Origin: Microbacterium aurugineum
GTDB lineage: Bacteria; Actinomycetota; Actinomycetes; Actinomycetales; Microbacteriaceae
Length of the DNA: 64,000 bases
Reading direction: 5' to 3'
Assembly: GCF_023101205.1 (NCBI RefSeq)
Contig: NZ_CP078078.1
Span: 310,001-374,000 of the forward strand
This document shows positions 42,481 to 60,199 of the stretch, piece after piece. Both the position numbers and the translations under genes were made by a program. The notes beneath the pieces are model-generated. The model was not told where the DNA came from. It saw nothing but the letters and a program-made list of their open reading frames with translations, and did no database searches. The number at the start of each line of letters is the position of its first letter. Positions within the stretch are counted from its first letter, which is position 1.

Positions 42481-42507
42481 GGTCCTCCGCTTTCTGTGGG
42501 GAGTCAT

Positions 42508-42521
42508 ATTGTAGCGACAAT
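42508..42521. promoter_or_regulatory. Putative GntR operator over the gntR -10 box
   Basis: ATTGT-AGCG-ACAAT is a perfect 5-bp inverted repeat. On the minus strand it contains TACAAT (42508-42513), the likely -10 box of the GntR gene, so binding would give autorepression. Confidence 0.55.
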
Positions 42522-42623
42522 CATACGATCCACCCCAGACCCGACTTTCCGGGAACTTCGAGCGGCGATGCGTGGCGAGGGGCGGCGCTGAGCAGCGAAA
42601 AGTCCTGAGGATGCTTAAAGTGT

Positions 42624-42653: not shown

Positions 42654-43351
42654 GCTACGTGTGGGATCCGCACCTGTTCGTGGAGCTCGGTCTCCTCGCC
42701 TTGGCCTTCGTGCTCTCGGTGGCGGTCGGTGTCGAGCGCTCCCGGAAGCTCAAGAGCGCGGGGCTGCGCACCCACGTCCTCGTCGGGATCGGTTCCGCCA
42801 TCTTCACCCTGATCTCGGCGTACGGATTCGAGGGGGTCCTCGGGCCTGACGTGGCCGTCGACCCCTCCCGCATCGCGGCGCAGGTCGTGTCCGGGATCGG
42901 GTTCCTCGGGGCCGGCGTGATCTTCGTGCGCAACAATGCCGTGTCGGGGCTGACGTCGGCGGCGACCATCTGGGTCGTGGCGGCGATCGGCATGGCCTGC
43001 GGTGCCAACATGCCTCTCCTGGCGATCGCCGGCACCGGGCTGCATCTGCTCACCGTCGGTCCGCTCTCCCGTGTGCGCGATCGTCTGCGCCCGGAGCCCG
43101 AGAGGCTACGGGTCACCGTCCAGTACGAGGCCGATCGGGGTGCTCTCCGTGAGGCGCTCGCGGCCGCCGAGCGACGCGGTCTGCCGGGCACCCTTCTCGG
43201 AGCGGCCCGGATCCACGGCGATTCCGACATGCGCGCGACCCTCGAGTTCGTCGAGGCCTCTCCCGACAAGCGCTCGGACCTGATCGACGCGATCGCGCGG
43301 CTCGATGGCGTGCGTTCGGTCGCCGTCCAGGGAGCCTCCGATGATGATTGA
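42650..43351 (+). CDS. MgtC/SapB-family inner-membrane protein
   Basis: 233 aa. Residues 1-140 hold four to five membrane helices with the MgtC signature GVERSRKLKSAGLRTHVLVGIGSAIFTLIS and VVSGIGFLGAGVIFVRNNAVSGLTSAATIWVVAAIGMACG. The C-terminal 85 residues form an ACT-like soluble domain. MgtC-like proteins affect growth at low magnesium and ATP synthase activity; the exact role here is unknown. AAGGAG lies 6 nt before GTG 42650. The -35 box of the inositol island overlaps its stop codon. Confidence 0.9.
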   Translation: MSYVWDPHLFVELGLLALAFVLSVAVGVERSRKLKSAGLRTHVLVGIGSAIFTLISAYGFEGVLGPDVAVDPSRIAAQVVSGIGFLGAGVIFVRNNAVSGLTSAATIWVVAAIGMACGANMPLLAIAGTGLHLLTVGPLSRVRDRLRPEPERLRVTVQYEADRGALREALAAAERRGLPGTLLGAARIHGDSDMRATLEFVEASPDKRSDLIDAIARLDGVRSVAVQGASDDD

Positions 43352-43376
43352 TGCATATGTAATTACCTGCTAACAT
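43348..43376 (+). promoter_or_regulatory. Promoter of inositol island unit 1, with spacer palindrome
   Basis: A -35 box TTGATG (43348-43353) and a -10 box TAACAT (43371-43376) are separated by the ideal 17 bp. The palindrome GTAATTAC (43359-43366) lies in the spacer and may bind a regulator. Transcription would begin near 43383, giving a 40-nt leader ending in AAAGGA 6 nt before GTG 43423. Confidence 0.65.
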
Positions 43377-43422
43377 TTTTACTGGGCTTCGGTCCGACCG
43401 TTCAATGGAGAAAGGAAATCGA

Positions 43423-44331
43423 GTGATCCGTATCGCGAATGCGCCGGTGAGCTACGGGGTCTTCGAGCTCGCACGCCCGGACCTCGTCGCACTTCCCGAA
43501 GGCGAGGAACTTGCGCGCTGGATCAGCGAGGCCGGCTACCAGGGCATCGATCTCGGACCGGTCGGACTTCTCGGACGAGGCGCGGAGCTGACGGATCGCC
43601 TGCGGCGCCACGGCCTCGAACTCGCGGGCGGATGGGTGGACCTTCCGTTCGCCGGTGCCGACGACGACTTCGCCCGCGCGATGGCGAACCTCGATGACAT
43701 CCTCGACGTGTTCGTCGCTGCGGCGGAGACCGGGCCGCCCCTTGCTCCTCTGCCCACGCTCGCCGACTCGGGCAGCGCGGCACGCAAGGCGCGTCCTGGT
43801 GGCGCTCCCGAACTCACGCTCCGTGGGGACGACTGGGCGCGGTTCGCCGATCGCGTCAACATCGCGACGGCGCGTGTCCGCGATCGCGGGCTCGAGCCGA
43901 CCTTCCACCACCACGCGTGCACGTATGTCGAGACGCCCGAAGAGGTCGACGCGCTGCTGGCATCGACCGACGTCGGTCTCACCTTCGACTCCGGTCACCT
44001 CCTCATCGGGGGCGGCGACCCGCTGCCCGACTTCCGCCGGTGGCGTGACCGCATCAATCACCTGCACCTCAAGGACGCGCGCACGCGGATCCTGCACGAG
44101 GCGTTGCAGGCCGATGACCCGATGCGCTCGGTCTGGGAGAAGCGCGTCTTCGTCCCGCTGGGGCAGGGGGATCTCGCCGTCACCGAACTCGTGGACGAGA
44201 TCATCGGCAGCGGATACAGCGGCTGGCTCATCGTCGAGCAGGACGTCGTGCCGCGCTCGACCGCTGAGGTCGAGCGGGCCAAGGCCGAGCAGGTCGCCAA
44301 CCGTGACGCCTTGCGGGCGTGGTTCGCGTGA
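43423..44331 (+). CDS. IolE-like inosose dehydratase / sugar phosphate isomerase-epimerase family
   Basis: 302 aa TIM barrel of the AP endonuclease 2 family. The opening IRIANAPVSYGVFEL matches the N-A-P-x-S-W-G-V group found with inositol genes. FHHHACTYVETPEEVDALL, LTFDSGHLLIGGGDPLPDF and NHLHLKDAR carry the metal ligands (Glu, Asp, His) of IolE. The expected reaction is dehydration of scyllo-inosose to the trihydroxycyclohexanedione that IolD cleaves. GTG 43423 has an AAAGGA site; ATG 43405 has none. The related fold also includes keto-glycoside lyases and epimerases. It overlaps the next gene by 4 nt. Confidence 0.78.
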   Translation: MIRIANAPVSYGVFELARPDLVALPEGEELARWISEAGYQGIDLGPVGLLGRGAELTDRLRRHGLELAGGWVDLPFAGADDDFARAMANLDDILDVFVAAAETGPPLAPLPTLADSGSAARKARPGGAPELTLRGDDWARFADRVNIATARVRDRGLEPTFHHHACTYVETPEEVDALLASTDVGLTFDSGHLLIGGGDPLPDFRRWRDRINHLHLKDARTRILHEALQADDPMRSVWEKRVFVPLGQGDLAVTELVDEIIGSGYSGWLIVEQDVVPRSTAEVERAKAEQVANRDALRAWFA

Positions 44332-45491
44332 GCGTCACCCGCGTCGCCGTCATCGGGTTGGGGGCGATCAGCCAGAGCGTGCACCTGCCGATGCTGCGCA
44401 GGAACGCGGAGGGCTTCGAGATCGCCGCACTCGTCGATCTCTCCGCCGAGCGCACCGCCGACATGGGAGCCCGCTACGGCGTCGCCGCGGACCGCCGGTT
44501 CTCGTCGGTCGATGCCCTCGTCGCTGCGAAGGACGACGGTGTGCTCGCGATCGACGCCGCCATCCTCGCCACCACCGGCTCCCACGCCGGCGACACGCTG
44601 CGGCTCGTGAAGGCCGGCATCCGTGTGCTCGCCGAGAAGCCCCTCGCCTACTCGATCGCCGAGCTCGACGCCCTTGCCGCCTACGCCGTGGACGCCGGGA
44701 TCGACCTGCGTGACTGGGTGCGCGTCGGCTACATGAAGGAGTACGACCTCGCGTCGCAGCACGCGAAGCGCCTCCTCGCCGACGTCGACCTGCGTGCGAT
44801 CAGCGTGCAGGTGATGCACCCGCTGGACGGCTCGCAACTGGAGTACGCCCGCCTCGCGGCGCGCACCCACGACGTCTCCGCGGAGGTGCTCGCCCCGCTG
44901 ATCGCAGCGACGGGGACGATCGTGGACTCGGCCGTCGGCGCCGACCTCCCGACCGACCTGCGCACGCTCTACACGAACGTCGTGCTGGGTTCCATCGTCC
45001 ACGACGTCGGACTGCTCCGTATGCTCGTCGGCGGTCTGGGCGATGTCGACTTCGCCCAGCACTGGGGTCCGAAGATGCCGGGATCGGTGCACCTGCGGGG
45101 CACGCTCGCTCGTGACGATACCCCGTGGACCCTCGATTGGCACTACATCGACGGTTACCCCGACTACCAGGAGACCGTCACCTTCCATCACGAGACCGGA
45201 ACCGTCGAACTGCTCTTCGGTGTTCCGTACGTGACCAATCTCCCCACCGTCCTCCGCGTGACGGAGAGTCACCCGGAGCTCGGCATCCGCGTGAGCGAGT
45301 CGCGGTGGATGCAGCAAGAGGCTTTCGAGAACGAACTGTTCGCGCTGGCGGCACTGGTCCGCGGCGAGCGTCCCGACGGGGCGAGCGTCGAGGAATCGAT
45401 GGCCGACGTGCGGGTCGGGCAGCGGATGATCCGCGCGCTCGCGCTCTCGAAGGGCGTCACGCTCGACCTGGGCGTCGAAGCCGCGCAGTAG
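44328..45491 (+). CDS. Gfo/Idh/MocA-family NAD(P)-dependent dehydrogenase (possible inositol dehydrogenase)
   Basis: 387 aa. The N-terminal Rossmann domain starts VAVIGLGAISQSVHLPML and has the family lysine motif LAEKPLAYSIAELD. The C-terminal beta-sheet domain includes VGYMKEYD and NVVLGSIVHDVGLLRML. It is the only candidate for the IolG step (inositol to scyllo-inosose). The active-site motif normally seen in IolG (GFNRRYD-like) is replaced by VGYMKEYDLAS, so the substrate may be a glycoside or another cyclitol. GTG overlaps the stop of the IolE-like gene (GTGA). Confidence 0.78.
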   Translation: MSVTRVAVIGLGAISQSVHLPMLRRNAEGFEIAALVDLSAERTADMGARYGVAADRRFSSVDALVAAKDDGVLAIDAAILATTGSHAGDTLRLVKAGIRVLAEKPLAYSIAELDALAAYAVDAGIDLRDWVRVGYMKEYDLASQHAKRLLADVDLRAISVQVMHPLDGSQLEYARLAARTHDVSAEVLAPLIAATGTIVDSAVGADLPTDLRTLYTNVVLGSIVHDVGLLRMLVGGLGDVDFAQHWGPKMPGSVHLRGTLARDDTPWTLDWHYIDGYPDYQETVTFHHETGTVELLFGVPYVTNLPTVLRVTESHPELGIRVSESRWMQQEAFENELFALAALVRGERPDGASVEESMADVRVGQRMIRALALSKGVTLDLGVEAAQ

Positions 45492-45508
45492 TTCACCCAC
45501 ATCCGCGA

Positions 45509-45526
45509 CCGAGCGCATCCGCTCGG
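45509..45526 (+). other. Intercistronic hairpin before the solute-binding protein gene
   Basis: CCGAGCG (45509-45515) pairs with CGCTCGG (45520-45526) around a 4-nt loop, in the only sizeable gap (61 nt) of unit 1. Such stems often protect the 5' end of binding-protein mRNA or reduce read-through, so the lipoprotein is made in excess over the permeases. Confidence 0.6.
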
Positions 45527-45552
45527 CGTTCAGCGATACAGAAAGGTCAGAA

Positions 45553-46962
45553 ATGGTCACGTACGGAAAGCGCCGCCTGCTTGCGGCGTTCGCCCTCACC
45601 ACTGTCGGTGCGGTCGTCCTGGCTGGCTGCTCCGGTGGATCGGAGCCGGAGACCGAGGACGAATCCGGGCCGGTCACCCTCACCCTCACCACCAACTCCA
45701 TCACCGGCGGCAAGAACAGTGCCGAAGCGGACTGGATCGCGGACTGGGTCATCCCCGAGTTCGAGAAGGCCATGGACGCGGAAGGCAAGGACGTCACCGT
45801 CGAGTTCCAGCCGCAGGGCGTCGACGATGAGGACTACAAGACCAAGATCGCCCTCGATCTGCAGTCCGGCAAGGGCGCCGACATCATCGGGATGGACGGC
45901 ATCTGGGTCGGCGAGTTCGCCGAGGCCGGATACATCAAGCCGCTCTCCGACGTCGGCGGCAAGGCGGTCGACGACTGGGACGGCTGGGCGCAGATCCCCG
46001 ACGCCGTGCAGAACGCCCTCTCGTTCGACGGCGACCGCTATGGCGTCCCGCAGGGCGCCGACGGTCGCGTGCTGTACTACAACAAGGACCTCTTCGCCCA
46101 GGCGGGGCTCGATGAGGACTGGGCTCCGGAGAGCTGGGACGACATCCTCGACGCGGCGCGCGACCTCAAGGACCTCGACGGCGTCACCCCGATCCAGCTG
46201 AACGCCGGTACGGCGATGGGCGAGGCGACGACGATGCAGGGTCTGCTTCCGATGCTGGTCGGCACCGGAGAGCAGGTGTACGAGGACGGCAAGTGGATCG
46301 GTGCCACCGACGGCATGGAGAAGACGCTCGACCTGTACGAGACGATCTACGTCGACGAGGGGCTCGGTGACCCGGTCCTCCAGCAGGAGGCGTCGGGACG
46401 CGACACCTCGTTCCAGCTCTTCGCCGAGGGCAAGATCGGCATCCTGCTCGAGGGCGACTACTTCTGGCGTTCCGTGATCAACCCCGCGGAGGGTGTGGGC
46501 ACGGCGCCGATGGCCGATCGCGACACCACCGTCGGGTACGCCAAGATCCCGGCGATCGAGCCGGGCGACGGCATCAACGATCAGGACTACGTCTCGATGT
46601 CCGGGGGTACCGGGCGTGTGCTCAACCCCAACTCGAAGCACGCCGCGCTCGCCTGGGAGCTGCTCGCCTTCATGAACTCGCCGGAAGCCTACGAGGCGCG
46701 TGCCGCCGGCACGCTCTCGATCTCCCCGCGCAACGACGTGAACGAGAAGCTCCTGTCGTCCGACCCCATGCTGACGTTCGTCAGCGAAGAGGTCCTGCCG
46801 ATCACCGCCTACCGTCCCGGCCTGGCCGCCTACCCGCAGGTGTCCGTGCTGCTCCAGCAGGCCACGCTCGACGTCGCCACCGGGACGTCGGTCGATGACG
46901 CCCTGGAGACCTACGTCCGTGGTCTCGAAGGCGTCGTGGGCCCGGACGCGATCTCCGAGTGA
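45553..46962 (+). CDS. Sugar ABC transporter solute-binding lipoprotein (CUT1 type)
   Basis: 469 aa. The signal peptide ends in the lipobox VLAGC (Cys about residue 26), so the mature protein is lipid-anchored outside the membrane. The family 1 binding-protein pattern is evident in DIIGMDGIWVGEFAEAGYIKPL, VPQGADGRVLYYNKDLFAQAGLD, ESWDDILDAARDL and FAEGKIGILLEGDYFW. CUT1 binding proteins usually take di- or oligosaccharides and glycosides rather than free polyols. AGAAAGG precedes the ATG. Confidence 0.93.
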   Translation: MVTYGKRRLLAAFALTTVGAVVLAGCSGGSEPETEDESGPVTLTLTTNSITGGKNSAEADWIADWVIPEFEKAMDAEGKDVTVEFQPQGVDDEDYKTKIALDLQSGKGADIIGMDGIWVGEFAEAGYIKPLSDVGGKAVDDWDGWAQIPDAVQNALSFDGDRYGVPQGADGRVLYYNKDLFAQAGLDEDWAPESWDDILDAARDLKDLDGVTPIQLNAGTAMGEATTMQGLLPMLVGTGEQVYEDGKWIGATDGMEKTLDLYETIYVDEGLGDPVLQQEASGRDTSFQLFAEGKIGILLEGDYFWRSVINPAEGVGTAPMADRDTTVGYAKIPAIEPGDGINDQDYVSMSGGTGRVLNPNSKHAALAWELLAFMNSPEAYEARAAGTLSISPRNDVNEKLLSSDPMLTFVSEEVLPITAYRPGLAAYPQVSVLLQQATLDVATGTSVDDALETYVRGLEGVVGPDAISE

Positions 46963-47909
46963 CCATGACGCAAGCAACGATGCCGGCGGGGAGCGTCACC
47001 GCTCCCCGCCGGCGCCGCGCGGAGGATGTCGCCGGTCTCGGCCGGGCGAGGGCGACCCTGTTCGCGGCGCCCGGTCTGCTCCTGATCGGCCTGTTCCTCC
47101 TCTTCCCGGCGCTCTGGACCGTCTACCTCGGGATGACCAACTACCGGCTCACCGGCTTCGCCGCCGCCAACCCGGAGTTCGTCGGACTCGAGAACTTCTC
47201 CACGGCGCTCAACGACCCGCGGTTCTGGAACTCGCTGTGGCTGACGCTGGTGTTCGTGCTGGTGTCGGGGATCATCGGGCAGACCGTCCTCGGCTTCGCG
47301 CTCGCCTGGATGCTGCGCAACGTGCGGGCCGGCGTCAAGACCTTCGTCGAGACGCTCGTCCTCGCGGCCTGGGTGATCCCCGCATCGGTCGCCTCGTTCC
47401 TCTGGCTCGCGCTCCTCGACCGGCGCACGGGCACTCTGAACTCCCTTCTCGGGACAGAGGGGGCGGCCTGGCTCATCGAGCATCCGATGGAGTGCATCAT
47501 CATCTTCAACATCTGGGTCGGGACGGCGTTCTCGATGCAGTTGTTCTCCTCGGCGATCAGCGCTGTCCCGCCGTCGCAGCTTGAGAGCGCCCGCATGGTC
47601 GGGGCCAACACGTGGCAGCAGCTGCGTGATGTGATCCTCCCCAACATCAAGGGGCACCTGCTGACCAATACGTTGCTGATCACGCTGTGGACCTTCAACA
47701 CCTTCACCCCCTACCTGCTCACCGCGGGCGGGCCGAACGGTCAGACCGACATCCTGTCGGTGTACATCTACCAGACCGCCATCCCCGGCGGGCAGCTGGG
47801 ACTCGGAGCGGCGATCTCGTTGATCATGCTCCTCATCAACCTCGTGATCGCGCTGATGTACACGCGCGTCTCGCGAGGGAAGAGCTCGAAGAAGAAGGTG
47901 CGCTCATGA
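46959..47909 (+). CDS. Sugar ABC transporter permease (MalF-like)
   Basis: 316 aa with six membrane helices. The EAA loop contacting the ATPase is seen as SQLESARMVGANTWQQLRDVILPNIKGHL. TMs begin with LFAAPGLLLIGLFLLFPALWTVYLGMTNY, typical of MalF-like CUT1 permeases. GTG 46959 overlaps the binding-protein stop by 4 nt and the stop overlaps the next permease by 4 nt. Confidence 0.93.
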   Translation: MTMTQATMPAGSVTAPRRRRAEDVAGLGRARATLFAAPGLLLIGLFLLFPALWTVYLGMTNYRLTGFAAANPEFVGLENFSTALNDPRFWNSLWLTLVFVLVSGIIGQTVLGFALAWMLRNVRAGVKTFVETLVLAAWVIPASVASFLWLALLDRRTGTLNSLLGTEGAAWLIEHPMECIIIFNIWVGTAFSMQLFSSAISAVPPSQLESARMVGANTWQQLRDVILPNIKGHLLTNTLLITLWTFNTFTPYLLTAGGPNGQTDILSVYIYQTAIPGGQLGLGAAISLIMLLINLVIALMYTRVSRGKSSKKKVRS

Positions 47910-48760
47910 TGACCACCATCAAGACCGTCGTGCGCGACCGGTCGGTGACCCATTTCGTGTCGCGGATCCTCTTCACGATCGTGATCGTGCTCGTGTCCCT
48001 GTTCTTCGCGCTGCCGATGGTGTGGCTGGTCCTGGCTCCGTTCGACGCGACGCCGTCGCTGACGGTGTCGTGGCCGGACTGGACGCTCGACAACTTCGCC
48101 CGCCTGGCGGAGAACCCGTACGCCCTGAAGTCGATCCTCAACTCCTTGATCCTCGGCATCGGGACCATGGCGCTCGTGATCGTGCTCGGAGCCCTGGCCT
48201 CGTACGCGATGAGCCGGATCAGCATCCCAGGGCGCGACGGCATCCTCTACGGGCTGCTGCTCCTGTCGTCCATCGTGACGGGGACGGCCGCGATGGTCCC
48301 GACCTTCCAGCTCATCAATCAGCTGCAGCTGATCAACACCCACGTCGGCGTCATCCTCGTGCTGGCCGGCGGGATCCTCCCGACGGTCATCTTCATCCTC
48401 AAGGACTTCATGGATTCCATCCCGAAGTCGTACGAGGAATCGGCACGGCTCTACGGTGCGGGCCCCTTCCGCATCCTCAAGGACGTCGTGGTGCCGATCG
48501 CCCGTCCGGGCCTCGCGTTCATCGCGATCTGGACGATCGTGCAGGTGTGGGGCAACTTCCTCGTGCCGTTCCTGCTTCTACGCACGCCCGACATGCAGCC
48601 GGCCGCCGTGCTCATGTACACCTTCTACACCGAGAGCGGCCAGGCCGATCTCCGACTGATCTCGGCGTTCTCGCTGGTGTTCTCGGTGCCCGTCCTTCTC
48701 ATCTACTTCTTTGTGAACCGCCGCTACGGTTTCCGCTTCCACGGAGGGATCAAGTCCTGA
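47906..48760 (+). CDS. Sugar ABC transporter permease (MalG-like)
   Basis: 284 aa, six membrane helices. The EAA loop is KSYEESARLYGAGPFRILKDVVVPIARPGL, and LILGIGTMALVIVLGALASYAMSRISIPGRD is a typical MalG segment. It pairs with the MalF-like permease. ATG overlaps upstream by 4 nt; the stop overlaps the ATPase start by 1 nt (TGATG). Confidence 0.93.
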   Translation: MMTTIKTVVRDRSVTHFVSRILFTIVIVLVSLFFALPMVWLVLAPFDATPSLTVSWPDWTLDNFARLAENPYALKSILNSLILGIGTMALVIVLGALASYAMSRISIPGRDGILYGLLLLSSIVTGTAAMVPTFQLINQLQLINTHVGVILVLAGGILPTVIFILKDFMDSIPKSYEESARLYGAGPFRILKDVVVPIARPGLAFIAIWTIVQVWGNFLVPFLLLRTPDMQPAAVLMYTFYTESGQADLRLISAFSLVFSVPVLLIYFFVNRRYGFRFHGGIKS

Positions 48761-49833
48761 TGGCCGCCATCATTGCAACCGAACTCGTCAAGGAGTACCC
48801 CGGCGGGGTGCGCGGCGTCGACAGCGTCGACGTCGAGATCGCGGACGGCGAGTTCTTCGCGCTGCTCGGTCCTTCCGGGTGTGGGAAGACCACGCTGCTG
48901 AGGTCGATCGCGGGCCTGGAGAGCATCACCTCCGGAAAGCTCACGATCGGCGAGAAGGACGTGACCAATGCCGAGCCGGGTGAGCGCGGCGTGGCGATGG
49001 TGTTCCAGGACTACGCGCTGTTCCCGCACATGGACGTCGGCGACAACATCGCCTACCCGCTCCGGATCCGCCGAGTGGGCAAGGGAGAGCGTCGCACCAC
49101 CGCGGAATCCGTCGCGAACGGTCTGTCGCTCAACGGCCTGATCGAGCGCCGACCCGGTCAGCTCTCCGGTGGCCAGCAGCAGCGCGTGGCCCTCGCTCGC
49201 GCCGTCGCGACCCGGCCCGATGTACTGCTGTTGGACGAGCCGCTGTCGAACCTCGATGCGCGTCTGCGGCTCGAGGCGCGGACCTTCCTGAAGGAGTTGC
49301 AGCGCGACCTCGGTGTCACCACCGTGTTCGTGACGCACGACCAGGCGGAGGCTCTCGCTCTCGCGGATCGGATCGCCGTCATGAAGGCGGGGAAGCTCCA
49401 GCAGATCGGCTCTCCGCGGGAGATCTTCCACCGTCCGAACAACACCTTCGTCGCCGGGTTCATCGGCTCCGTGCCGATGAACCTCCTCGAGACGACGGTC
49501 GCGGCCGGTCATGTCCGCATCGGCGACGCGGATGTCCCGGTCCCGCCGGAAGCCGCCGCGGCGGTGAGGGATGGGCAGACCGTGAGCTGGGGCATCCGTC
49601 CCGAGTACCTGCGCTGGTCGGCCGAACCCGTCGCGGACGGAATCGCGGCGGAGGTCGTCGTGACCGAAACCCTCGGTGCGACGAGCCTCGTGCTCGTGAG
49701 CGCGGGGGAGCACAAGCTCCAGGTCGTCGTTCCCGAGGAACAGGAGCCCGCCGCGGGCGACCGTGGCTGGATCGTCCCGCAGCTCAACCGCGCGCTGCTG
49801 TTCGACGCCGAGAGCACCGAGCGGATCGGCTGA
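48760..49833 (+). CDS. Sugar ABC transporter ATPase (MsmK/UgpC/MalK type)
   Basis: 357 aa. Walker A GPSGCGKTTLLR, signature LSGGQQQRVALARA, Walker B VLLLDEPLSNLDARLR and H-loop VFVTHDQAEAL. A C-terminal TOBE/OB domain (about 240-357) is present with SWGIRPEYLR and VVTETLGATSLVLV. Most actinobacteria share one MsmK among importers, so a dedicated ATPase in the operon is notable. TGATG overlaps at both ends couple it to its neighbours. Confidence 0.93.
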   Translation: MAAIIATELVKEYPGGVRGVDSVDVEIADGEFFALLGPSGCGKTTLLRSIAGLESITSGKLTIGEKDVTNAEPGERGVAMVFQDYALFPHMDVGDNIAYPLRIRRVGKGERRTTAESVANGLSLNGLIERRPGQLSGGQQQRVALARAVATRPDVLLLDEPLSNLDARLRLEARTFLKELQRDLGVTTVFVTHDQAEALALADRIAVMKAGKLQQIGSPREIFHRPNNTFVAGFIGSVPMNLLETTVAAGHVRIGDADVPVPPEAAAAVRDGQTVSWGIRPEYLRWSAEPVADGIAAEVVVTETLGATSLVLVSAGEHKLQVVVPEEQEPAAGDRGWIVPQLNRALLFDAESTERIG

Positions 49834-51089
49834 TGGGCACCGTCCGCACCACCCTCCATCTCACGCACGACATCCAGAACGCCGATCGCTACGTGCGGGT
49901 GCCGTTCGACGTGCCCTCGGGCACGGATTCGCTCGAGGTGCGCATCTCCTACGACACCGAGGCGGCCGTGATCGACCTCGGCTGCGAGGGGGCGGCAGGG
50001 TGGCGCGGATGGTCCGGCGGCGCGCGGACCACGTACGTGATCCGCACGGACGACGCCACCCCGGGGTACCTTCCCGGGCGCCCGGAAGAGGGCGAGTGGA
50101 ACGTGATCCTCGGGGTGCACCGACTGAGCGCCGGTGGCGCCGACGTCATGGTCGAGATCCTCCTGCCCGCGGAATCGACGATCGACCACGGCCCGGTCGT
50201 CGCCCCCGTGGCGGGGGTGCCCCGCGGAAGCTCGAGGAACCTCCCCGCCTCCGCAGGTCTGCGGTGGTTCGCCGGCGACTTCCACGCGCACACCCTCCAT
50301 TCGGACGGCCGCGAGAGCATCTCCGGCCTGGCGGCACTCGGGGTGAGCGCCGGACTCGACTTCCTGGCCGTCACCGACCACAACACCACGAGCCACCACG
50401 CGCATCTCCCCGGGATCGGGGAGCAGCATGCGATCACGCTGCTGCCCGGCCAGGAGGTGACCACGCACCGTGGTCATGCGAACGCCTTCGGGGACATCGG
50501 CTGGATCGACTTCCGCCGCCCCGCGCAGGAATGGGTCGACGAGGTCGAGCGCCGTGGCGGCGTCCTGAGCGTGAACCACCCGATCTCGGGGGACTGCTCG
50601 TGGCTGCACCCGCTCTCGCGCCTGCCGCGTGCCATCGAGCTCTGGCATTCGACGTGGTACCGCGAGCTCATCGCCACGTCGCCGCTCGCGTTCCACGAGC
50701 GCTGGGGCAAGGACGCCGTCCTCCTCGGCGGTGCCGACTTCCACATGCAGAGCCAGGGCATCGGGCCCGGTACGCCGACCACCTGGGTTGCCGCGGAAGA
50801 CGCCTCGCCCGAGGCGATCCTCGCCGGAGTCGCTGCGGGGAGGACCGCGATCATGGGCGGGGTCACCGTGCGGGACGGACTCAGCGCACCCGACCTCTTC
50901 ACCGCCCCGGTCCTTCTGCGCGTCGATGACGAACTGCTCGCCGTCGACGCCGACGGTCTGATCCTCGTCGACGGTGCCGGTGAACGCCGCTCGGTGCACG
51001 GAGACCTCGCCTCTTTCGCCGCCGATCGGGCCGCCGGCCCCTACTACCTGCTGCATCCCGACCGCAGCATCGCCGCCCTGTGCGCCTGA
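49833..51089 (+). CDS. PHP-domain metallohydrolase, CehA/McbA-like
   Basis: 418 aa. An N-terminal beta-rich domain of about 140 residues (TLHLTHDIQNADRYVRVPFDVPSG) precedes a PHP domain. The metal ligands are visible in FHAHTLHSDGR, FLAVTDHNTTSHH, LPGQEVTTHRGHANAFG, NHP and GGADFHMQ. CehA/McbA-family proteins are metal-dependent esterases or phosphoesterases. No signal peptide, so it is cytoplasmic. Its place between the importer ATPase and the GH38 gene, coupled by a 1-nt overlap, suggests it removes a phosphate or ester from the imported compound. Confidence 0.8.
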   Translation: MGTVRTTLHLTHDIQNADRYVRVPFDVPSGTDSLEVRISYDTEAAVIDLGCEGAAGWRGWSGGARTTYVIRTDDATPGYLPGRPEEGEWNVILGVHRLSAGGADVMVEILLPAESTIDHGPVVAPVAGVPRGSSRNLPASAGLRWFAGDFHAHTLHSDGRESISGLAALGVSAGLDFLAVTDHNTTSHHAHLPGIGEQHAITLLPGQEVTTHRGHANAFGDIGWIDFRRPAQEWVDEVERRGGVLSVNHPISGDCSWLHPLSRLPRAIELWHSTWYRELIATSPLAFHERWGKDAVLLGGADFHMQSQGIGPGTPTTWVAAEDASPEAILAGVAAGRTAIMGGVTVRDGLSAPDLFTAPVLLRVDDELLAVDADGLILVDGAGERRSVHGDLASFAADRAAGPYYLLHPDRSIAALCA

Positions 51090-51132
51090 CCGGCCGCACG
51101 CATCTTCCGCAGAGAATCAGGAGTCCCCGCCC

Positions 51133-53817
51133 GTGACCAGTGAGATCGTCGTCGTTCCCCACACCCACTGGGACCGCGAATGGTATGAGCCGCACGATGT
51201 CTTCCGCCTGCGCCTGGTGCACATGCTCGACCGGCTGATCGGGATCCTGGAGGCCGAGCCGGAGTACCGGTTCACGCTCGACGGACAGGCCGCGGCGATC
51301 GAGGACTACCTCGAGATGCGTCCGGAGATGCGGGACCGGGTCATGGCTCTGGTGCAGCGGGAGCAGCTGAGTGTGGGCCCGTTCCTCATCCTGCTCGACG
51401 AGTTCGGCTGCGACGGCGAGACCATCATCCGCAACCTCGAGCTCGGTCGCGCCGCGAGCGCGCGTCTGGGCCGCACCATGCCGGTCGGCTACCTCCCGGA
51501 CATGTTCGGCCATGCGGCGCAGATGCCGCAGATCCTGGCCGGGTTCGGCATCCGTCACAGCGCGCTCTGGCGGGGTGTGCCCGCTGACGTCGCTGAGCAC
51601 GCGTTCGCATGGGTCGCCCCGAACGGCGATGCCGTGCGCTGCGAGTACCTCTTCGACGGCTACGGCAACGGGCTCGACATGTTCGCTCTGCCGGGTCAGC
51701 TCCCCGCGCTCGCCCCCGACTACGCCGCCCGCACCGCGTCCTGGTACGGCGACGACCCGGTGCTCGCGATGCTGGGCACCGATCACTCCGCACCTCCCGA
51801 AGACCTCGCCGAGGTCATCCGGGACTACGACGCGACGGGCCGCGAACCGCACCTGTCGATCGCGACCCTCGACGGGCACCTCTCGCGCTATGCGACGGAT
51901 GCCGCGGCGCTGGCCGTTCTTCCGCAGGTGCACGGCGAGATGCGCTCGCACGCCCGCGGCAACCTGCTGCCCGGGGTGTTCTCGATCCGCACGAACCTCA
52001 AGCGCGAGATGGCACGTTCGGAGCAGGCGCTCACGGCCGCCGAACGACTCGACCTGATGTTCGGATCCCGCGACCACCGCTCCTTCTTCGACACCGCCTG
52101 GTACCGCCTGGTGGAGAGCACGGCGCACGACTCCGTGACCGGCTGTGGCGTCGACGCGACGGCTGAGCAGGTCGGGACCCGCATCCACACCGCGGGGCAC
52201 ATCGCCCGTGGGGTCATCGACACCGTCCTCCGTGACGTGTCGGCGGCAGTGTCGCCTGCGCAGCACCTCGTGTTCAACCCCTCGGGCTTCGCTCGGCGTG
52301 CGCAGGTGGAGGTCACTCTGCACGGGGTGGATGCGGCGGCGCTCCCGGCGGGCGTGCAACTGCTGGACCCGCTGCCCACCGTGCTCGGCGACGAGCGGAT
52401 GCGCAGCGCCGATCTGCCCAAGATCCTCCGCCGCATCCACGGGCGTGAGCTCTTCGGGCAGCAGATCAACGGGTACGAGTGGGGCGAGCAGTCGCTCCGC
52501 TTCCAGGTGGCGGAGAGCCCTGAGGGTGTCTGGGACCTGGCGGCTTTCACCGTGGAACTGGAGGAGCGCGTGGCGGCGGATGCCGGCGGCGACGACCTCT
52601 GGCATGTCGAGACGATCGCCGATGCGCGCCACCGTGCCCTGCTGGCGGTGGACGTCGACGGTCTCGCGCTCGCCGCGGTGGCCGAGGCGACGGCGGCGGT
52701 TTCCGATGACCCGGTCACGGTGACCACCGGATCGCTCTCGAACGCCGCGCTCACCGTGACCGTGAACGCCGATGGCACCGTGCGCATCGACGGGGCGGAC
52801 GGCTCCTCGATCGACGGCGCCCTCGCCCTCGTCGATGACGGCGACTGCGGCGACTCCTACAACTACGGCCCGGTCGATCCGGCCTCCGCGGTGAGGAATG
52901 CGTCCTCCGTCGACGTCGCCGTGATCGAGGAGGGGCCGCTGCGCGGACGCCTCCGCATCCGTCGGGTCTACGACCTACCGGTGGGGCTGACCGAAGACCG
53001 GACACGTTCGAGTGAGACCGTGCCGCTGGTGACCGAGACCACGATCGAACTGCGCGAGGGGGAGGGCTTCCTGCGTGTCGGCATCGACTACGTGAACACG
53101 GCCTCCGACCACCGGCTCCGGGTGCTCGTCCCCGTCGGGGGTGCGGAGCTCGACGCCTCTCGGAGCGCCGGACAGTACGCGACGACCGTCCGTGGTCGCG
53201 AGGCGGAGGGTGGCTGGGGCGAGTTCCCGTTGCCGACCTACCCGGCGTACCGCTTCGCCGCGGCGGGTTCGACCGCGGTTCTCGTGCAGAAGCTGTCGGA
53301 GTACGAACTCGTGTCGACTCCGGGCGCATCCGACGCCCTCGCGGTCACCCTGTCCCGCTCCGTCGGCATGATGAGCGTCAACGTGCATCCGCTGCGTGAC
53401 GAGCCCGCCGGTTCCGAGATCCCCGTTCCCGGTGCGCAGTACCTCGGAGTGGCCGTGCACACGGACCTGGCGATCCTGGTCGGCGCGGATGATGCGACGG
53501 CCGTGCGCGCCGCCGACCTCTTCCGGCACGACCCGCTCGTGGTCCGCGGTTCGGGCGAGACCGACGGTCCGGTGCCCGAGGCAGCCTTCCCGGTCGAGCT
53601 CTCGGGCGACGTCGTGCTGGAGTCGGCGCGACGGGTCGGTGATGCCGCTGAGCTCCGATTCGTGAACTACCTGTCCGACGCACGCGACGTGGCGTTCTCG
53701 GCGCCGGGGTCCTGGACGCGGGTCGACCTGGCCGGTGAGGTTCAGGAGGCCGCGTTCGACGCGTCCTCCGCGCGCACGGACGCGGGCGCGATGCTCAGCA
53801 TCCGACGATCGCTCTGA
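51133..53817 (+). CDS. Glycoside hydrolase family 38 alpha-mannosidase
   Basis: 894 aa. The GH38 zinc and catalytic residues are present: HTHWDREW (H10, H12, D14) and the nucleophile D123 in VGYLPDMFGHAAQMPQIL. AHDSVTGCGVD supplies a further zinc-binding His, followed by the middle three-helix bundle and the C-terminal beta-sandwich domains. It cleaves terminal alpha-mannosides. No signal peptide is seen, so the enzyme acts on imported substrate. GTG 51133 has AGGAG upstream. Part of unit 1, 43 nt after the PHP gene. Confidence 0.92.
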   Translation: MTSEIVVVPHTHWDREWYEPHDVFRLRLVHMLDRLIGILEAEPEYRFTLDGQAAAIEDYLEMRPEMRDRVMALVQREQLSVGPFLILLDEFGCDGETIIRNLELGRAASARLGRTMPVGYLPDMFGHAAQMPQILAGFGIRHSALWRGVPADVAEHAFAWVAPNGDAVRCEYLFDGYGNGLDMFALPGQLPALAPDYAARTASWYGDDPVLAMLGTDHSAPPEDLAEVIRDYDATGREPHLSIATLDGHLSRYATDAAALAVLPQVHGEMRSHARGNLLPGVFSIRTNLKREMARSEQALTAAERLDLMFGSRDHRSFFDTAWYRLVESTAHDSVTGCGVDATAEQVGTRIHTAGHIARGVIDTVLRDVSAAVSPAQHLVFNPSGFARRAQVEVTLHGVDAAALPAGVQLLDPLPTVLGDERMRSADLPKILRRIHGRELFGQQINGYEWGEQSLRFQVAESPEGVWDLAAFTVELEERVAADAGGDDLWHVETIADARHRALLAVDVDGLALAAVAEATAAVSDDPVTVTTGSLSNAALTVTVNADGTVRIDGADGSSIDGALALVDDGDCGDSYNYGPVDPASAVRNASSVDVAVIEEGPLRGRLRIRRVYDLPVGLTEDRTRSSETVPLVTETTIELREGEGFLRVGIDYVNTASDHRLRVLVPVGGAELDASRSAGQYATTVRGREAEGGWGEFPLPTYPAYRFAAAGSTAVLVQKLSEYELVSTPGASDALAVTLSRSVGMMSVNVHPLRDEPAGSEIPVPGAQYLGVAVHTDLAILVGADDATAVRAADLFRHDPLVVRGSGETDGPVPEAAFPVELSGDVVLESARRVGDAAELRFVNYLSDARDVAFSAPGSWTRVDLAGEVQEAAFDASSARTDAGAMLSIRRSL

Positions 53818-53828
53818 GCAGATCACCG

Positions 53829-53842
53829 CATTAGTGCTAATG
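53829..53842. promoter_or_regulatory. Putative operator upstream of iolC
   Basis: CATTAG-TG-CTAATG has perfect 6-bp arms. It lies in the 57-nt gap before iolC, in an AT-rich stretch that also holds TAATGT and TAAGAC, either of which could be a -10 box. A similar TTAG/TAAT spacing occurs in the spacer of the unit 1 promoter read on the other strand, but the match is loose. Confidence 0.5.
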
Positions 53843-53874
53843 TTAAGACAAATGCGCGAAGGAGTGGAGGGGTG

Positions 53875-54831
53875 ATGTCGGAGGAACGATCGGTCGCGGA
53901 GATCCTGGCCATCGGGCGCCTGGGCGTCGACCTGTACCCGCTGCAGGACGGCGTCGGTCTCGGTGACGTCACCAGTTTCGGAAAGTACCTCGGTGGAAGT
54001 GCGGCCAACGTGGCCGTCGCCGCTGCTCGCTACGGGCACGACACCGCTCTGCTCTCCCGGGTGGGAGACGACCCCTTCGGGCGGTACCTTCGCGAGGAGC
54101 TGGAGCGTCTCGGGGTGCGGAGCGACTTCGTCGCGACCGATCCGAGCTACAAGACGCCGATCACGTTCTGCGAAATCTTCCCGCCGGACGACTTCCCCCT
54201 GTACTTCTATCGCGAGCCCACTGCTCCCGACCTGCAGATCCGCCCCGGCGACGTCGATGCGCAGACCGTGCGGGAAGCGACGCTCCTCTGGTTCACGGCG
54301 ACAGGCCTGAGCGAGGAGCCGAGTAGACAGACCCACCTCGACCTCCTCGCGTCGCGGGGACGCCGTGCGCACACCGTGTTCGACCTGGACTACCGACCGA
54401 TGTTCTGGGAGGCGCCGGAGGCCGCGCGCACGCAGATCCAGCGTGCGCTCGAGTTCGCCACCGTCGCCGTCGGCAACCGCGAGGAGTGTGAGGTCGCGGT
54501 CGGCGAGACCGAACCGCAGCGTGCCGCGGACGCGCTCCTGGAGCGCGGCGTGGAACTGGCGATCGTCAAGCAGGGGCCGCGCGGTGTGCTCGCCAAGACG
54601 CGGTCGACGCAGGTGGAGATTCCGGCCACCCCGGTCGAGGTCGTCAACGGGCTCGGTGCCGGCGATGCGTTCGGTGGCGCGCTCTGCCACGGCCTGCTGG
54701 CGGGATGGGAACTGGAGAAGACGTTGATCTATGCGAACGCGGCGGGCGGCATCGTGGCCGGCCGCCGGGAATGTTCGACCGCGATGCCGACGGAGCGCGA
54801 GGTCGCCGAGGTCGTGAACGGAGATGCATGA
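53875..54831 (+). CDS. iolC: 5-dehydro-2-deoxygluconokinase
   Basis: 318 aa PfkB-family kinase phosphorylating 2-deoxy-5-keto-D-gluconate in myo-inositol breakdown. The N-terminal sugar-binding GKYLGGSAANVAVAAARYG and the catalytic GLGAGDAFGGALCHG (base D264) are clear. FDLDYRPMFWEAPE is a segment characteristic of IolC. A GTG at 53872 directly precedes ATG 53875; GGAGG upstream fits either. First gene of unit 2. Confidence 0.92.
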   Translation: MSEERSVAEILAIGRLGVDLYPLQDGVGLGDVTSFGKYLGGSAANVAVAAARYGHDTALLSRVGDDPFGRYLREELERLGVRSDFVATDPSYKTPITFCEIFPPDDFPLYFYREPTAPDLQIRPGDVDAQTVREATLLWFTATGLSEEPSRQTHLDLLASRGRRAHTVFDLDYRPMFWEAPEAARTQIQRALEFATVAVGNREECEVAVGETEPQRAADALLERGVELAIVKQGPRGVLAKTRSTQVEIPATPVEVVNGLGAGDAFGGALCHGLLAGWELEKTLIYANAAGGIVAGRRECSTAMPTEREVAEVVNGDA

Positions 54832-54832
54832 G

Positions 54833-55732
54833 ATGACAGCACTGACCGAGGACGACTTCCACCGGCTCCGGACGGTGCGTGCGGAGTCGCCGCGAGCGAT
54901 CCGCGAGACGCTGGCCGGGCGACGTCGTCGCGAGATCATCCGCGGCGACGGGCGGCTGTTCATCATCGCGGCCGACCATCCTGCGCGCGGTGCGCTCGCC
55001 GTCGGCGGCTCGCCGTTCGCGATGGCCGACCGCTACGAGCTGCTCGACCGCCTCGCGATCGCCCTGCGGCACCCGGGCGTCGACGGCGTGCTGGGAACCC
55101 CCGACATCATCGACGACCTCGCCGTGCTCGGTCTGCTCGACGACAAGATCGTGGTCGGCTCGATGAACCGCGGTGGCCTGCGGGGGGCGAGCTTCGAGAT
55201 GGACGACCGCTACACAGGGTACGACGTGCCGGCGATGGTGGACTCGGGAATCGACTTCGCCAAAGCGCTCCTGCGGGTGAACCTCGACGACGACGGGACG
55301 GCACCCACGCTGGCCTCGACGGCGGAAGCGGTCACGGCGGCCGCACGCGCGGATCTGCCGATCATGCTGGAGCCGTTCCTGAGTCGACGCGTGGACGGCC
55401 GGGTCGTCAACGATCTGAGTCCGGATGCCGTGATGCTGTCGATCGCCATCGCCAGCGGTCTGGGCGCGAGCAGCGCCAGCTCCTGGCTGAAGCTGCCGGT
55501 GGTCGAAGACATGGAGCGGGTGCTGGCGGCGACGACGTTGCCGGTGCTGCTCCTCGGCGGAGACGCGGGCGCCGACCCCGACGACACGTTCTCGACCTGG
55601 GAGGATGCTCTCTCGCTGCCAGGAGTGCGCGGACTGACGGTCGGACGCACGCTCCTGTACTCCTCCGACATCGACGTCGCGTCCGCCATCGATGTCGCCG
55701 CCTCTCTGGTCCACCCCGGGCTCACCGCCTGA
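54833..55732 (+). CDS. Cgl0159-type (beta/alpha)8 aldolase of the inositol pathway
   Basis: 299 aa. RLFIIAADHPARGALAVGG, GVDGVLGTPDIIDDLAVLGLL and the Schiff-base type segments LPIMLEPFLSRR and WLKLPVVEDMERVLAATTLPVLLLGGDAG match the family found next to iolC in Corynebacterium. By position it fills the IolJ role, splitting 2-deoxy-5-keto-gluconate 6-phosphate to dihydroxyacetone phosphate and malonate semialdehyde. ATG 54833 is preferred for its GGAG at 9-nt spacing; ATG 54824 would overlap iolC more. Confidence 0.82.
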   Translation: MTALTEDDFHRLRTVRAESPRAIRETLAGRRRREIIRGDGRLFIIAADHPARGALAVGGSPFAMADRYELLDRLAIALRHPGVDGVLGTPDIIDDLAVLGLLDDKIVVGSMNRGGLRGASFEMDDRYTGYDVPAMVDSGIDFAKALLRVNLDDDGTAPTLASTAEAVTAAARADLPIMLEPFLSRRVDGRVVNDLSPDAVMLSIAIASGLGASSASSWLKLPVVEDMERVLAATTLPVLLLGGDAGADPDDTFSTWEDALSLPGVRGLTVGRTLLYSSDIDVASAIDVAASLVHPGLTA

Positions 55733-55774
55733 ACGCCTCTTCCCGCCTGAACGCCACTTCGCCGAAGGATACGT

Positions 55775-57298
<1,524 letters not shown>

Positions 57299-57322
57299 GC
57301 TTCGGATCGGGCAGAAGGCGTC

Positions 57323-58231
57323 ATGACCGAGCAGGGGCAATGGTTCCACCGCCGAGGGACGATCGGCCGCGACGGGTGGGAGAGCGTCGTCGACGCTGCG
57401 ATCCCGGGATGGACGCACACCGGCATCCGCATCGGAGCGCTCGCCGCGGGGGAGACCCTCGCGCTCGCCGAGGACGGGGTCGAGCGGATCATCGTGCCGC
57501 TCGCGGGTTCCTTCACGGTGCAGCACACCGAGCAGGGCGCGACCTCGGAGACGACGCTCGCCGGCCGCCGGTCGGTCTTCGACGGGCCCAGCGACGTGCT
57601 CTACCTGTCGTCCGTAGCCTCCGCGGTCATCACGGGAGTCGGTCGGGTGGCGGTGGCCTCCGCGCCCGCATCGGCCGTGCATCCGACCCGGCACATCCGC
57701 GCCGCCGAGATCCCGATCGAGCTCCGCGGAGCCGGCACCTCCAGCCGGCAGGTGCACAACTTCGGCACGCCGGAAGCGCTCGACGCCGAGCGCCTCATCG
57801 TCTGCGAGGTCATCACGCCCGCGGGGAACTGGTCGTCGTATCCGCCGCACAAGCACGATGAGCACGTGTCGGGACGGGAATCCCGGCTCGAGGAGATCTA
57901 CTACTTCGAGGCGGCCCCCACGCGTGCCGGCGGCGATGCCGGTGCCGCCGAGGCCGCGTTCGGGATGTTTGCGACCTATTCCTCGGACGCGGGCGCGATC
58001 GACATCGCCGAGCGGGTGGGCACGGGTGATATCGCGCTGGTCCCGTTCGGATTCCACGGACCCGCTGTCGCCGCACCGGGCTACGACCTCTACTACCTGA
58101 ACGTCATGGCCGGCCCCGATCCGGAGCGGGTGTGGCTGATCACCGACGACCCGGCGCACGCGTGGGTGCGCGACAACTGGAGCGGGCAGGACATCGATTC
58201 CCGGCTTCCCTACGGACATGGAGATCACTGA
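57323..58231 (+). CDS. iolB: 5-deoxy-glucuronate isomerase
   Basis: 302 aa two-cupin enzyme. The metal ligands appear in SSYPPHKHDEH (His, His) with the following Glu in RLEEIYYFE, and the final His in PFGFHGPAVAAPGYDLYYLNVMAG. It converts 5-deoxy-glucuronate to 2-deoxy-5-keto-gluconate. Its stop overlaps iolD by 1 nt. Confidence 0.94.
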   Translation: MTEQGQWFHRRGTIGRDGWESVVDAAIPGWTHTGIRIGALAAGETLALAEDGVERIIVPLAGSFTVQHTEQGATSETTLAGRRSVFDGPSDVLYLSSVASAVITGVGRVAVASAPASAVHPTRHIRAAEIPIELRGAGTSSRQVHNFGTPEALDAERLIVCEVITPAGNWSSYPPHKHDEHVSGRESRLEEIYYFEAAPTRAGGDAGAAEAAFGMFATYSSDAGAIDIAERVGTGDIALVPFGFHGPAVAAPGYDLYYLNVMAGPDPERVWLITDDPAHAWVRDNWSGQDIDSRLPYGHGDH

Positions 58232-60141
58232 TGCAGACGAAGCGGATGACGGTCGGCCAGGCCCTGGTCGAGTTCCTCTCGCGGCAATGGACCGTCGACG
58301 GCACCATCCGTGAGCGCACCGTGCCCGGTATGTTCGGGATCTTCGGCCACGGGAACGTCGCGGGTCTCGGTCAGGCGCTGCAGCAGTACAACCTCGAGCA
58401 GCCCGATCTGATGCCCTACCGCCAGGCCCGCAACGAACAGGCGATGGTGCACCAGGCGGTGGGCTTCGCGCGGATGCACCGGCGTAGGGCCACGTTCGCG
58501 AGTGCGGCCTCAGTGGGGCCGGGCGCGACGAACATGCTCACCGGTGCGGCCCTCGCGACGACCAACCGGCTCCCGGCGCTGCTGTTGCCGAGTGACACCT
58601 TCGCCACCCGAGTCGCCGATCCCGTCCTGCAGCAGCTGGAGCGCCCGCACGACATCGGGCTCACGGTGAACGATGCGTTCCGCCCGCTCTCGGTGTTCTT
58701 CGACCGGGTGCAGCGCCCCGAGCAGCTCTTCTCGATCGCGCTCGCGGCGATGCGCGTGCTCACCGATCCGGCGGAGACGGGGGCGGTGACGATCGCCCTC
58801 CCCGAAGACGTGCAGGCCGAGGCTGTGGACGTCCCGCTCGAATTCCTCCAGGAGCGTGAATGGCACATCCGCCGGCCACTGCCCGAACGCGGACCGCTCG
58901 AGCGTGCCGTGGCCGCGATCCGCGGCGCGAAGCAGCCGCTCATCGTCGCCGGTGGGGGGGTGATCTATTCGGAAGCGGAGCAGGCACTCCGTGCGTTCGC
59001 CGAGGCCACCGGCATCCCGGTCGGCACCACGCAGGCGGGCGGTGGCGCATTGCCCTGGGACCACCCGCAGAATCTCGGCGGGATCGGTGCGACGGGAACC
59101 ACCGCCGCGAACCGGATCGCCGCCGACGCCGATGTGATCATCGGTATCGGCACGCGCTACAGCGATTTCACCACCGCGTCGCGTACCGCCTTCCAGAACC
59201 CGGATGCGGTGTTCGTGAACGTCAACGTCGCCGCCCTCGACGCCTACAAGCACGGCTCGCAGCTCCCGCTCATCGCCGATGCCAGGGAAGCGCTGGTCGC
59301 GCTCACGGGCATGCTCGGGGACTTCCGGATCGCGACCGATCTGAGCGCGCGGATCGCCGACGAGAAGCGGCGATGGGATGCGGTGGTCGACCACGCTCTC
59401 GCGCCCACGGGTGGCGAACTGCCGGGGCAGCCCGAGATCATCGGCGCCGTGCGCGGGTCGGTGGCCGATGCGGACGTCATCGTGCAGGCGGCCGGCTCGC
59501 TCCCCGGAGATCTGCACAAGCTGTGGCGGGTGAGCGACCCGCTCGGCTACCACGTCGAGTACGCCTACTCCTGCATGGGGTATGAGATCGCGGGAGGCCT
59601 CGGCGTCAAACGGGGGCTCCTCGCATCCGGTGACGAGCGGGACGTGATCGTCATGGTCGGCGACGGTTCGTACCTGATGTTGAGCTCCGAACTCGCGACG
59701 GCCGTGGCCGAGGGCATCAAGATCATCGTCGTGCTCGTCCAGAACCAGGGATACGCCTCGATCGGGCATCTCTCGGAGACGGTGGGCACGGAGCGCTTCG
59801 GCACGAAGTACCGGAGCTACGACGAGGAGACGCGGAGCTTCCAGCACGGTGACGTGCTCCCGGTCGACCTCGCGATGAACGCTCGCAGCTACGGCGTCGA
59901 CGTCATCGAGATCGCACGGGGGTCTGCGGCGATCGATGACCTGCGTGCTGCGGTCGCCACGGCGAAGGCCTCGGAGCGGTCGACGCTCATCCACATCGAC
60001 AGTGACCCGACGGTCTACGGTCCGGACGGGGAGGGTTGGTGGGACGTGCCGGTGGCGGCGGTCTCGACCACGGACACCGCACAGCGGGCCCTCGACGAGT
60101 ACGTGCAGCAGCGTGCTGCACAGCGTCCCCTGCTGGGCTGA
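58231..60141 (+). CDS. iolD: 3D-(3,5/4)-trihydroxycyclohexane-1,2-dione acylhydrolase
   Basis: 636 aa thiamine diphosphate enzyme, acetolactate-synthase fold, opening the inositol ring. The N-terminal [17 protein letters not shown] and [19 protein letters not shown] hold the catalytic Glu region. ThDP binding is seen in [18 protein letters not shown] (GDGS start) ending near [10 protein letters not shown]. Full length for IolD. ATG overlaps the iolB stop (TGATG). Last gene of unit 2; rlmN follows after 58 nt with its own promoter. Confidence 0.95.
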
Positions 60142-60199
60142 CGTCACGGAAGCACCGCACCCCAGGGCCTTCCCATCCGTCACCGCGTACCCTGGAGGT

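Follow-up and report, generated by a model that had tools for sequence, protein, structure and literature searches.

Gene content of the locus

We analyzed a 64,000-nucleotide stretch of DNA from the soil bacterium Microbacterium aurugineum (contig NZ_CP078078.1, positions 310,001 to 374,000), hereafter the window, whose own numbering is used throughout. Thirteen close-set open genes lie on its + strand at 43423-60141, with intergenic gaps of -8 to +61 bases. The original prediction had described an IolE-like gene, a Gfo/Idh dehydrogenase, a CUT1 importer with its ATPase, a PHP hydrolase, and a GH38 alpha-mannosidase, followed by iolC, an aldolase, iolA, iolB, and iolD; each of these genes was present as an open reading frame on the + strand, and family models confirmed this content. 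Since a search of 42400-60400 revealed no site resembling a terminator or a sigma-70 promoter, a single transcript for the 13-gene run is plausible. The host genome is a single contig of 3.63 Mb, and each gene of the locus shares 99-100% identity with its counterpart in Microbacterium sp. CBA3102.

The first eight genes, here called the module, are predicted to encode an IolE homologue of the 2-keto-myo-inositol dehydratase family (43423..44331; the frame is open from 43405, and the GTG at 43423 is the likelier start), a Gfo/Idh/MocA oxidoreductase with Gly at the position of the catalytic Asp172 of IolG (44328..45491), a CUT1 solute-binding lipoprotein with a lipobox-like LAGC (45553..46962), permeases A (46959..47909) and B (47906..48760), an ATPase of the UgpC/MalK type (48760..49833), a CehA/McbA-type PHP metallohydrolase with an N-terminal beta-sandwich (49833..51089), and a GH38 alpha-mannosidase (51133..53817). 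They are followed by iolC, for 5-dehydro-2-deoxygluconokinase (53872..54831), a Cgl0159-like aldolase gene (54824..55732; PF22649), whose product is presumed to be the 6-phospho-5-dehydro-2-deoxygluconate aldolase, iolA, for the CoA-acylating (methyl)malonate-semialdehyde dehydrogenase (55775..57298), iolB, for 5-deoxy-glucuronate isomerase (57323..58231), and iolD, for trihydroxycyclohexane-1,2-dione hydrolase (58231..60141). The products of iolC, iolA, iolB, and iolD all scored above the curated NCBIfam cut-offs, which places the run among inositol catabolic gene clusters. A gene for a GntR/HutC-family regulator, presumably the inositol repressor, lies upstream on the - strand (41719..42507).

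For comparison, we used 15 Microbacterium iol loci lacking the module, taken from 14 genomes of a genus sample. Eleven of them share one layout, in which the GntR gene is followed by iolC-aldolase-iolA-iolB-iolD-IolE and usually by an IolG-type gene, and the window GntR is 66-74% identical to the GntR of these loci. In the window, nothing IolE- or IolG-like follows iolD, and the eight-gene module sits between GntR and iolC. Importer genes read as CUT2-like from their sequence were found near four of the 11 common-layout loci (L182, L184, L188, and L199). The module occupies the place that inositol-uptake genes would normally have, and its make-up suggests the import and stripping of an inositol compound that carries mannose and probably phosphate. 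We tentatively read the locus as an inositol catabolic operon that lacks the ordinary iolE-iolG tail and carries an added eight-gene feeder for decorated inositol, a reading to which we give slightly less than an even chance. Compared with the actinobacterial myo-inositol cluster (iolC/aldolase/iolA/iolB/iolD/iolE/iolG, for example in Corynebacterium glutamicum), the window has the same five downstream genes, an adjacent GntR, an operator-like palindrome, and an IolE of the same family, but it lacks iolE-iolG after iolD, contains in addition the CUT1 importer, PHP, and GH38 genes, and has a Gfo protein that is far from IolG by score.

Linkage of the module to inositol genes

The genome-level association was analyzed in an order sample of 396 genomes, of which 31 carried the PHP gene and 162 carried iolD. 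The importer and PHP genes occurred together in 21 genomes from 10 genera, the window included, and iolD was present in all 21, against 162 of 396 overall (Fisher test, 3e-9, not corrected for kinship). When PHP was accompanied by an MFS_2 transporter (seven genomes, six with YdjC), iolD was found in five of seven, and when neither transporter was present, in two of three. Overall, 28 of the 31 PHP-bearing genomes had iolD. The genus sample of 295 genomes, with iolD in 75 and PHP in 11, gave a similar picture: iolD was detected in 10 of the 11 PHP genomes, compared with 65 of 284 others (Fisher test, 6e-6, uncorrected for kinship and counting one broken copy, G301). The exception, G004, has a PHP of the MFS-YdjC type. 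The broken copy belongs to Microbacterium sp. Se63.02b (L034; G301:C1:3645981-3647126), where PHP and GH38 contain stops and are broken into several fragments and iolB into two, through either decay or assembly errors.

Next, species genomes were scanned with the GH38 protein, and the best 80 of 468 matches were taken as loci. The binding protein, ATPase, and PHP genes were found together in 34 of these 80 (core loci), and IolE plus Gfo in 29 of the 34. At least two iol genes lay within the fetched stretch in 18 of the 34 core loci, compared with eight of the other 46. One of the five core loci without IolE and Gfo, from Ruania (L064), has the pair elsewhere in its genome, beside iolA. The core genera include Microbacterium, Agromyces, Actinotalea, Jiangella, Haloactinopolyspora, Actinomyces, Scrofimicrobium, Arachnia, Arthrobacter, Paenarthrobacter, Ruania, and Planotetraspora. 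The arrangement varies among them: in L040 the operon from binding protein to GH38 (both permeases, ATPase, and PHP between) is convergent with iolC-iolB-iolD-iolA-IolE-Gfo, in Jiangella IolE-Gfo-GH38 is separate from the genes running from the binding protein to PHP, and IolE-Gfo adjoins iolA in L040, L248, and L262.

A palindrome provides a further link. In ordinary Microbacterium iol loci (L182, L184, L187, L194, and L199) it recurs ahead of the GntR gene, with the consensus ATTGTCnnGACAAT, and the candidate operator in the window, ATTGTAGCGACAAT (42508..42521, no strand), differs from it at one position. Allowing at most one mismatch in the 12-base core, we scanned 58 non-Microbacterium loci (55 distinct; eight of the 58 already covered by an earlier scan), amounting to 1.18 Mb. 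The palindrome TTGTCnnGACAA gave 26 near-matches, and 20 of these, one site being counted twice in overlapping loci, lay at most 250 bases in front of a module, iol, or GntR operon, a region of 29.8 kb or 2.5% of the scanned sequence. Four of the remaining matches were upstream of other genes and two elsewhere. As a control, the full set of 319 other half-sites containing two G/C averaged 0.43 such matches, the highest being ATGTC, a one-letter relative, with 13, and CTGTA with eight. The sites precede iolC, iolA-IolE-Gfo, and, in Jiangella, IolE-Gfo-GH38, and they precede the importer operon in L046, L239, L245, L246, L260, and L261, with three sites in L255; in Agromyces they were found only before iolC. 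A GntR-adjacent site was present in seven of 10 Microbacterium module loci scanned, the window included, with none in L025 and unplaced sites in L027 and L028. Sites before both module and iol operons were thus observed in a subset of the relatives, and the window has a single site beside GntR. We propose that the GntR repressor keeps the module and the iol genes in one regulon, by presumed binding to this palindrome. The C. glutamicum IolR operator is similar and was not used as support. In the Actinomyces loci the regulator is of the ROK type (Pfam-checked in L038, the rest by clustering), and no palindrome was found upstream of the module. The genome of the window contained 12 near-matches, compared with 17 for the reversed pattern; half were upstream of called genes, including two for secreted proteins, and none was convincing as a further regulon member. 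An MgtC/SapB-like gene (42650-43351), scoring below the cut-off of its model, lies between GntR and the operon; the same gene occupies this position in several Microbacterium species, and not in L024 or L026.

The co-occurrence with iolD and the shared palindrome make a chance adjacency of module and iol genes unlikely, and the neighborhood analysis refutes the idea that the GH38/importer half and the iol half are never linked, since they adjoin in several genera. An alternative is that the module handles alpha-mannosides or mannan fragments and lies beside iol genes with no metabolic coupling. Among the 22 of 34 core-locus genomes tested, 19 had iolD and 19 had iolB above cut-off, with the same three lacking both: A. 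provencensis (L039), A. dentalis (L042), and A. glycerinitolerans (L094). The last has importer, PHP, and GH38 without IolE and Gfo, and the two Actinomyces keep the module, suggesting that the module is not strictly dependent on inositol breakdown; furthermore, 16 of the 34 core loci lack two iol genes in the fetched stretch. This uncoupled role is nevertheless improbable in view of the presence of iolD in every importer-plus-PHP genome, as against 162 of 396 overall, the palindrome common to separate operons, and the grouping of the module-type IolE with that of iol operons (see below). Very probably, the module serves inositol catabolism. In the 22 tested genomes, IolE above cut-off was additionally found in four.

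Module proteins and the proposed route

The IolE homologue gave 135.7 bits on TIGR04379, below the 290-bit cut-off. Two IolE proteins of ordinary Microbacterium iol operons also fell below it, with 147 and 128.5 bits, so this cut-off does not discriminate here. In a tree of 63 IolE-type sequences, the 36 module-type proteins were sister to six iol-operon IolE of Microbacterium with a joint support of 100/99; the program flagged long branches in other parts of the tree. This grouping makes it unlikely that the protein is merely an unrelated sugar isomerase. No gene in the genome of the window scored above the IolE or IolG cut-off, and the same cut-offs miss ordinary copies.

The importer has the components of a CUT1 ATP-binding cassette (ABC) system, i.e., an SBP_bac_1 lipoprotein, two BPD_transp_1 permeases, and an ATPase with MalK OB/TOBE domains. 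In this it resembles the Ugp and Mal importers, but neither the permeases nor the ATPase reached the threshold of any NCBIfam model listed (the best 25 for the ATPase); the ATPase was closest to UgpC, of glycerophosphodiester uptake. The PHP protein passed the CehA/McbA cut-off of 80 with 127.4 bits (NF038032). Its residues H151, H153, D158, H183, E208, H215, H249, D302, and H304, which we take to be metal ligands, were invariant in 42 rows (41 of 120 listed homologues and the window). The nearest solved folds to its structure model were mostly phosphoesterases, and the protein is presumed to be a phosphoesterase, differing from known PHP phosphoesterases and CehA/McbA-type hydrolases (3e38, 2anu, 3o0f, and 2yb1) in combining the beta-sandwich domain with an inositol context. 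No signal peptide was seen by eye, so a cytoplasmic location is presumed. A PHROGs search with PHP returned nothing. The GH38 protein gave 103.4 bits on PF01074, the GH38 N-terminal domain (cut-off, 25), and 306 bits on NF007331, the model for the mannosylglycerate hydrolase MngB, which requires 1138. H12, D14, D123, and H332, presumably metal and nucleophile residues, were among the conserved positions of 80 rows. The domain and its catalytic and metal-site residues are shared with MngB and other GH38 enzymes (3lvt and 2wyh), but the window GH38 has iol genes and an ABC importer as its neighbors. A second GH38 lies elsewhere in the same genome (G000:C1:226062-226811, 315 bits).

These family assignments are consistent with the following route, each catalytic step of which is proposed from sequence. 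The lipoprotein and permeases would import an alpha-mannosylated, probably phosphorylated inositol, which may be a headgroup released by phosphatidylinositol mannosides or by fungal mannosyl-inositol-phosphoryl lipids; such lipids are common in soil and hosts. In the cytoplasm, PHP would remove the phosphate or open a phosphodiester and GH38 would strip alpha-mannose; Gfo/Idh would then oxidize the ring of the inositol, yielding an inosose for dehydration by the IolE homologue, and IolD, IolB, IolC, the aldolase, and IolA would complete the known pathway, with the GntR repressor holding both sets of genes in one regulon. For the parts of this reading, alpha-mannose on the imported compound is slightly favored, and phosphate is an evenly balanced call. 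The whole, an inositol operon with a feeder for alpha-mannosylated, probably phosphorylated inositol, falls somewhat short of an even chance, a judgment lowered by the loci that lack GH38 or IolE and Gfo and by a possible second dehydrogenase, all described below.

If true, this would be a new bacterial way to feed on inositol-containing membrane lipids. For a headgroup pathway in several actinobacterial genera, the module would provide a set of named genes together with an importer and a regulator that can be tested, and it would supply a substrate hypothesis for the CehA/McbA-type PHP family and a divergent GH38 clade. Among the literature matches listed, by titles and starts of abstracts, none described a locus of the same composition, and none dealt with bacterial catabolism of phosphatidylinositol-mannoside or fungal mannosyl-inositol lipid headgroups. 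In the nearest described case among these matches, from Salmonella, a glycosidase-like gene, srfJ, is tied to the inositol cluster, and the authors suggest inositol release from sphingolipids (PMC9430895); SrfJ is glycosylceramidase-like, not GH38, and the passage concerned mentions no CUT1 importer or PHP.

Substrate and dehydrogenase

Several observations weigh against the proposed route. A counted operator match was present in only seven of the 20 importer-plus-PHP loci of the order sample outside the window, with none in the other 13, and the single site of the window, with one mismatch, is not significant alone, since 44 of 100 window shuffles contained at least one such match. Analysis of the binding protein pointed to no ligand, and the PHP family also occurs in unrelated MFS-YdjC operons with neither GH38 nor operator. 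Eight of the 20 loci (L239, L240, L242, L243, L245, L246, L255, and L265) had no GH38 within the fetched stretch, where unlabelled genes were not Pfam-searched, and only six had IolE and Gfo within it, two further genomes (L248 and L262) having the pair elsewhere. Two Actinomyces genomes, L039 (single contig) and L042 (draft), hold all eight module genes without iolB or iolD. Lastly, the catalytic triad of inositol dehydrogenases is Lys, Asp, and His (PMC9603128), and all 36 module Gfo rows had Gly where the triad has Asp; the C. glutamicum proteins OxiC and IdhA3, both without this Asp, are inactive on inositols, as described in the same source (PMC9603128).

The claim that a mannosylated, possibly phosphorylated inositol is imported and burnt consequently fared unevenly. 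Its inositol part is well supported by the linkage, and the mannose and phosphate find some support in the GH38 genes, present beside 12 of the 20 loci (seven of the module type and five of an unrelated type), and in the PHP fold; the loci without GH38, the altered Gfo, and the two Actinomyces count against it. The unrelated GH38 follows ABC-PHP in L256 and L258-L261 (Pfam-checked in L256). The loose coupling of GH38 and of IolE plus Gfo to the importer and PHP suggests that the latter may deliver free inositol, usable by any IolG/IolE pair.

The same loci bear on a different substrate for the module, such as glycerophospho-inositol, an inositol phosphate, an O-methyl or other inositol isomer, or glucosaminyl-inositol, with GH38 acting on a second moiety or being incidental. 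The GH38-free loci all belong to iolD-bearing genomes, and four of them (L239, L245, L246, and L255) have operator matches; the similarity of the ATPase to UgpC, though below cut-off, the phosphoesterase-like PHP model, and the PHP clade found with YdjC point in the same direction. The presence of GH38 beside 12 of 20 loci, by two types of enzyme, argues for a mannosylated compound instead, and we regard these other substrates as possible, though doubtful. The 80 loci selected by GH38 cannot bear on whether GH38 is incidental.

The Gfo protein gave 47.5 bits on TIGR04380 (IolG) and did not reach the cut-off of 355. Five IolG-type proteins of iol loci, four from Microbacterium and one from Haloactinopolyspora, gave 164-368 bits, with one above it. 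The Lys and His of the triad were kept in 36 of 36 module rows, and the Asp position of 29 IolG-type rows (assigned by similarity) held Asp in 26, Glu in two, and Gly in one. Gly also occupies this position in one IolG-type protein encoded in an ordinary iol locus (L199:15716-16759). Since the Asp is gone from Gfo and the Asp-less C. glutamicum proteins are inactive on inositols, the substrate of Gfo may be a compound other than free myo-inositol, or catalysis may depend on another residue. Growth was not recovered, however, when Asp was put into IdhA3 (PMC9603128). We searched the genome of the window for a second inositol dehydrogenase, and no match above the TIGR04380 cut-off was found (NF052679 was not searched genome-wide). 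Because this cut-off misses most ordinary Microbacterium IolG proteins too, a second enzyme elsewhere in the genome is possible. The best IolG match outside the island was a Gfo/Idh protein in another sugar cluster (G000:C1:170099-171106, L008; 136.6 bits), in which Lys, Asp, and His stand, by eye, at IolG-like spacing.

It is unlikely, in our estimate, that this is a hitherto undescribed actinobacterial regulon for inositol-glycolipid headgroups in which the iol pathway is supplied by a dedicated importer, a phosphoesterase, and an alpha-mannosidase, while the Asp-less dehydrogenase, paired with a specialized IolE, oxidizes a substituted, i.e., mannosylated or phosphorylated, inositol and not free myo-inositol. 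In a further variant, Gfo and IolE would precede or replace hydrolysis, oxidizing a substituted inositol whose substituent leaves by beta-elimination, a chemistry known from 3-keto-glycoside lyase pathways. The retention of Lys and His without the Asp is compatible with it, as are the relatives of Gfo in the PDB, by sequence, which include glucose-fructose oxidoreductase and DgpA beside inositol dehydrogenases. In LgdA/DgpA-type systems, a Gfo dehydrogenase likewise stands beside a TIM-barrel eliminase-like protein, but its partner in the window is an IolE homologue close to ordinary IolE, and the GH38 with its conserved catalytic residues makes elimination unnecessary. Moreover, the importer-plus-PHP loci without adjacent IolE and Gfo fit the release of free inositol, and beta-elimination appears highly improbable.

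Two other gene arrangements were observed. An operon of binding protein, two permeases, GH38, and a LacZ-like GH2, with a LacI or ROK regulator, was found in L048, L049, L056, L061, L065, L078, L082, L084, L088, L089, and L096, with an alpha-galactosidase-like gene nearby in L082, L088, and L089 (Pfam-checked in L082). This Streptomyces-type operon adjoins iol genes in L065, L078, L082, L084, L088, L089, and L096, and it was rejected as support because some of its upstream sites differ (TTGTCCTCACAA and similar). A separate PHP clade lies in MFS_2-YdjC-PHP operons without ABC genes, GH38, or operator match (L195, L247, L249, L251, L252, L254, L263, and L266); the L247 operon has MFS_2 and PHP without YdjC, and the YdjC of L195 is at 10190-11020. 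In L041, MFS_2 and YdjC stand beside the module, YdjC being Pfam-confirmed in L195 and L041 only.

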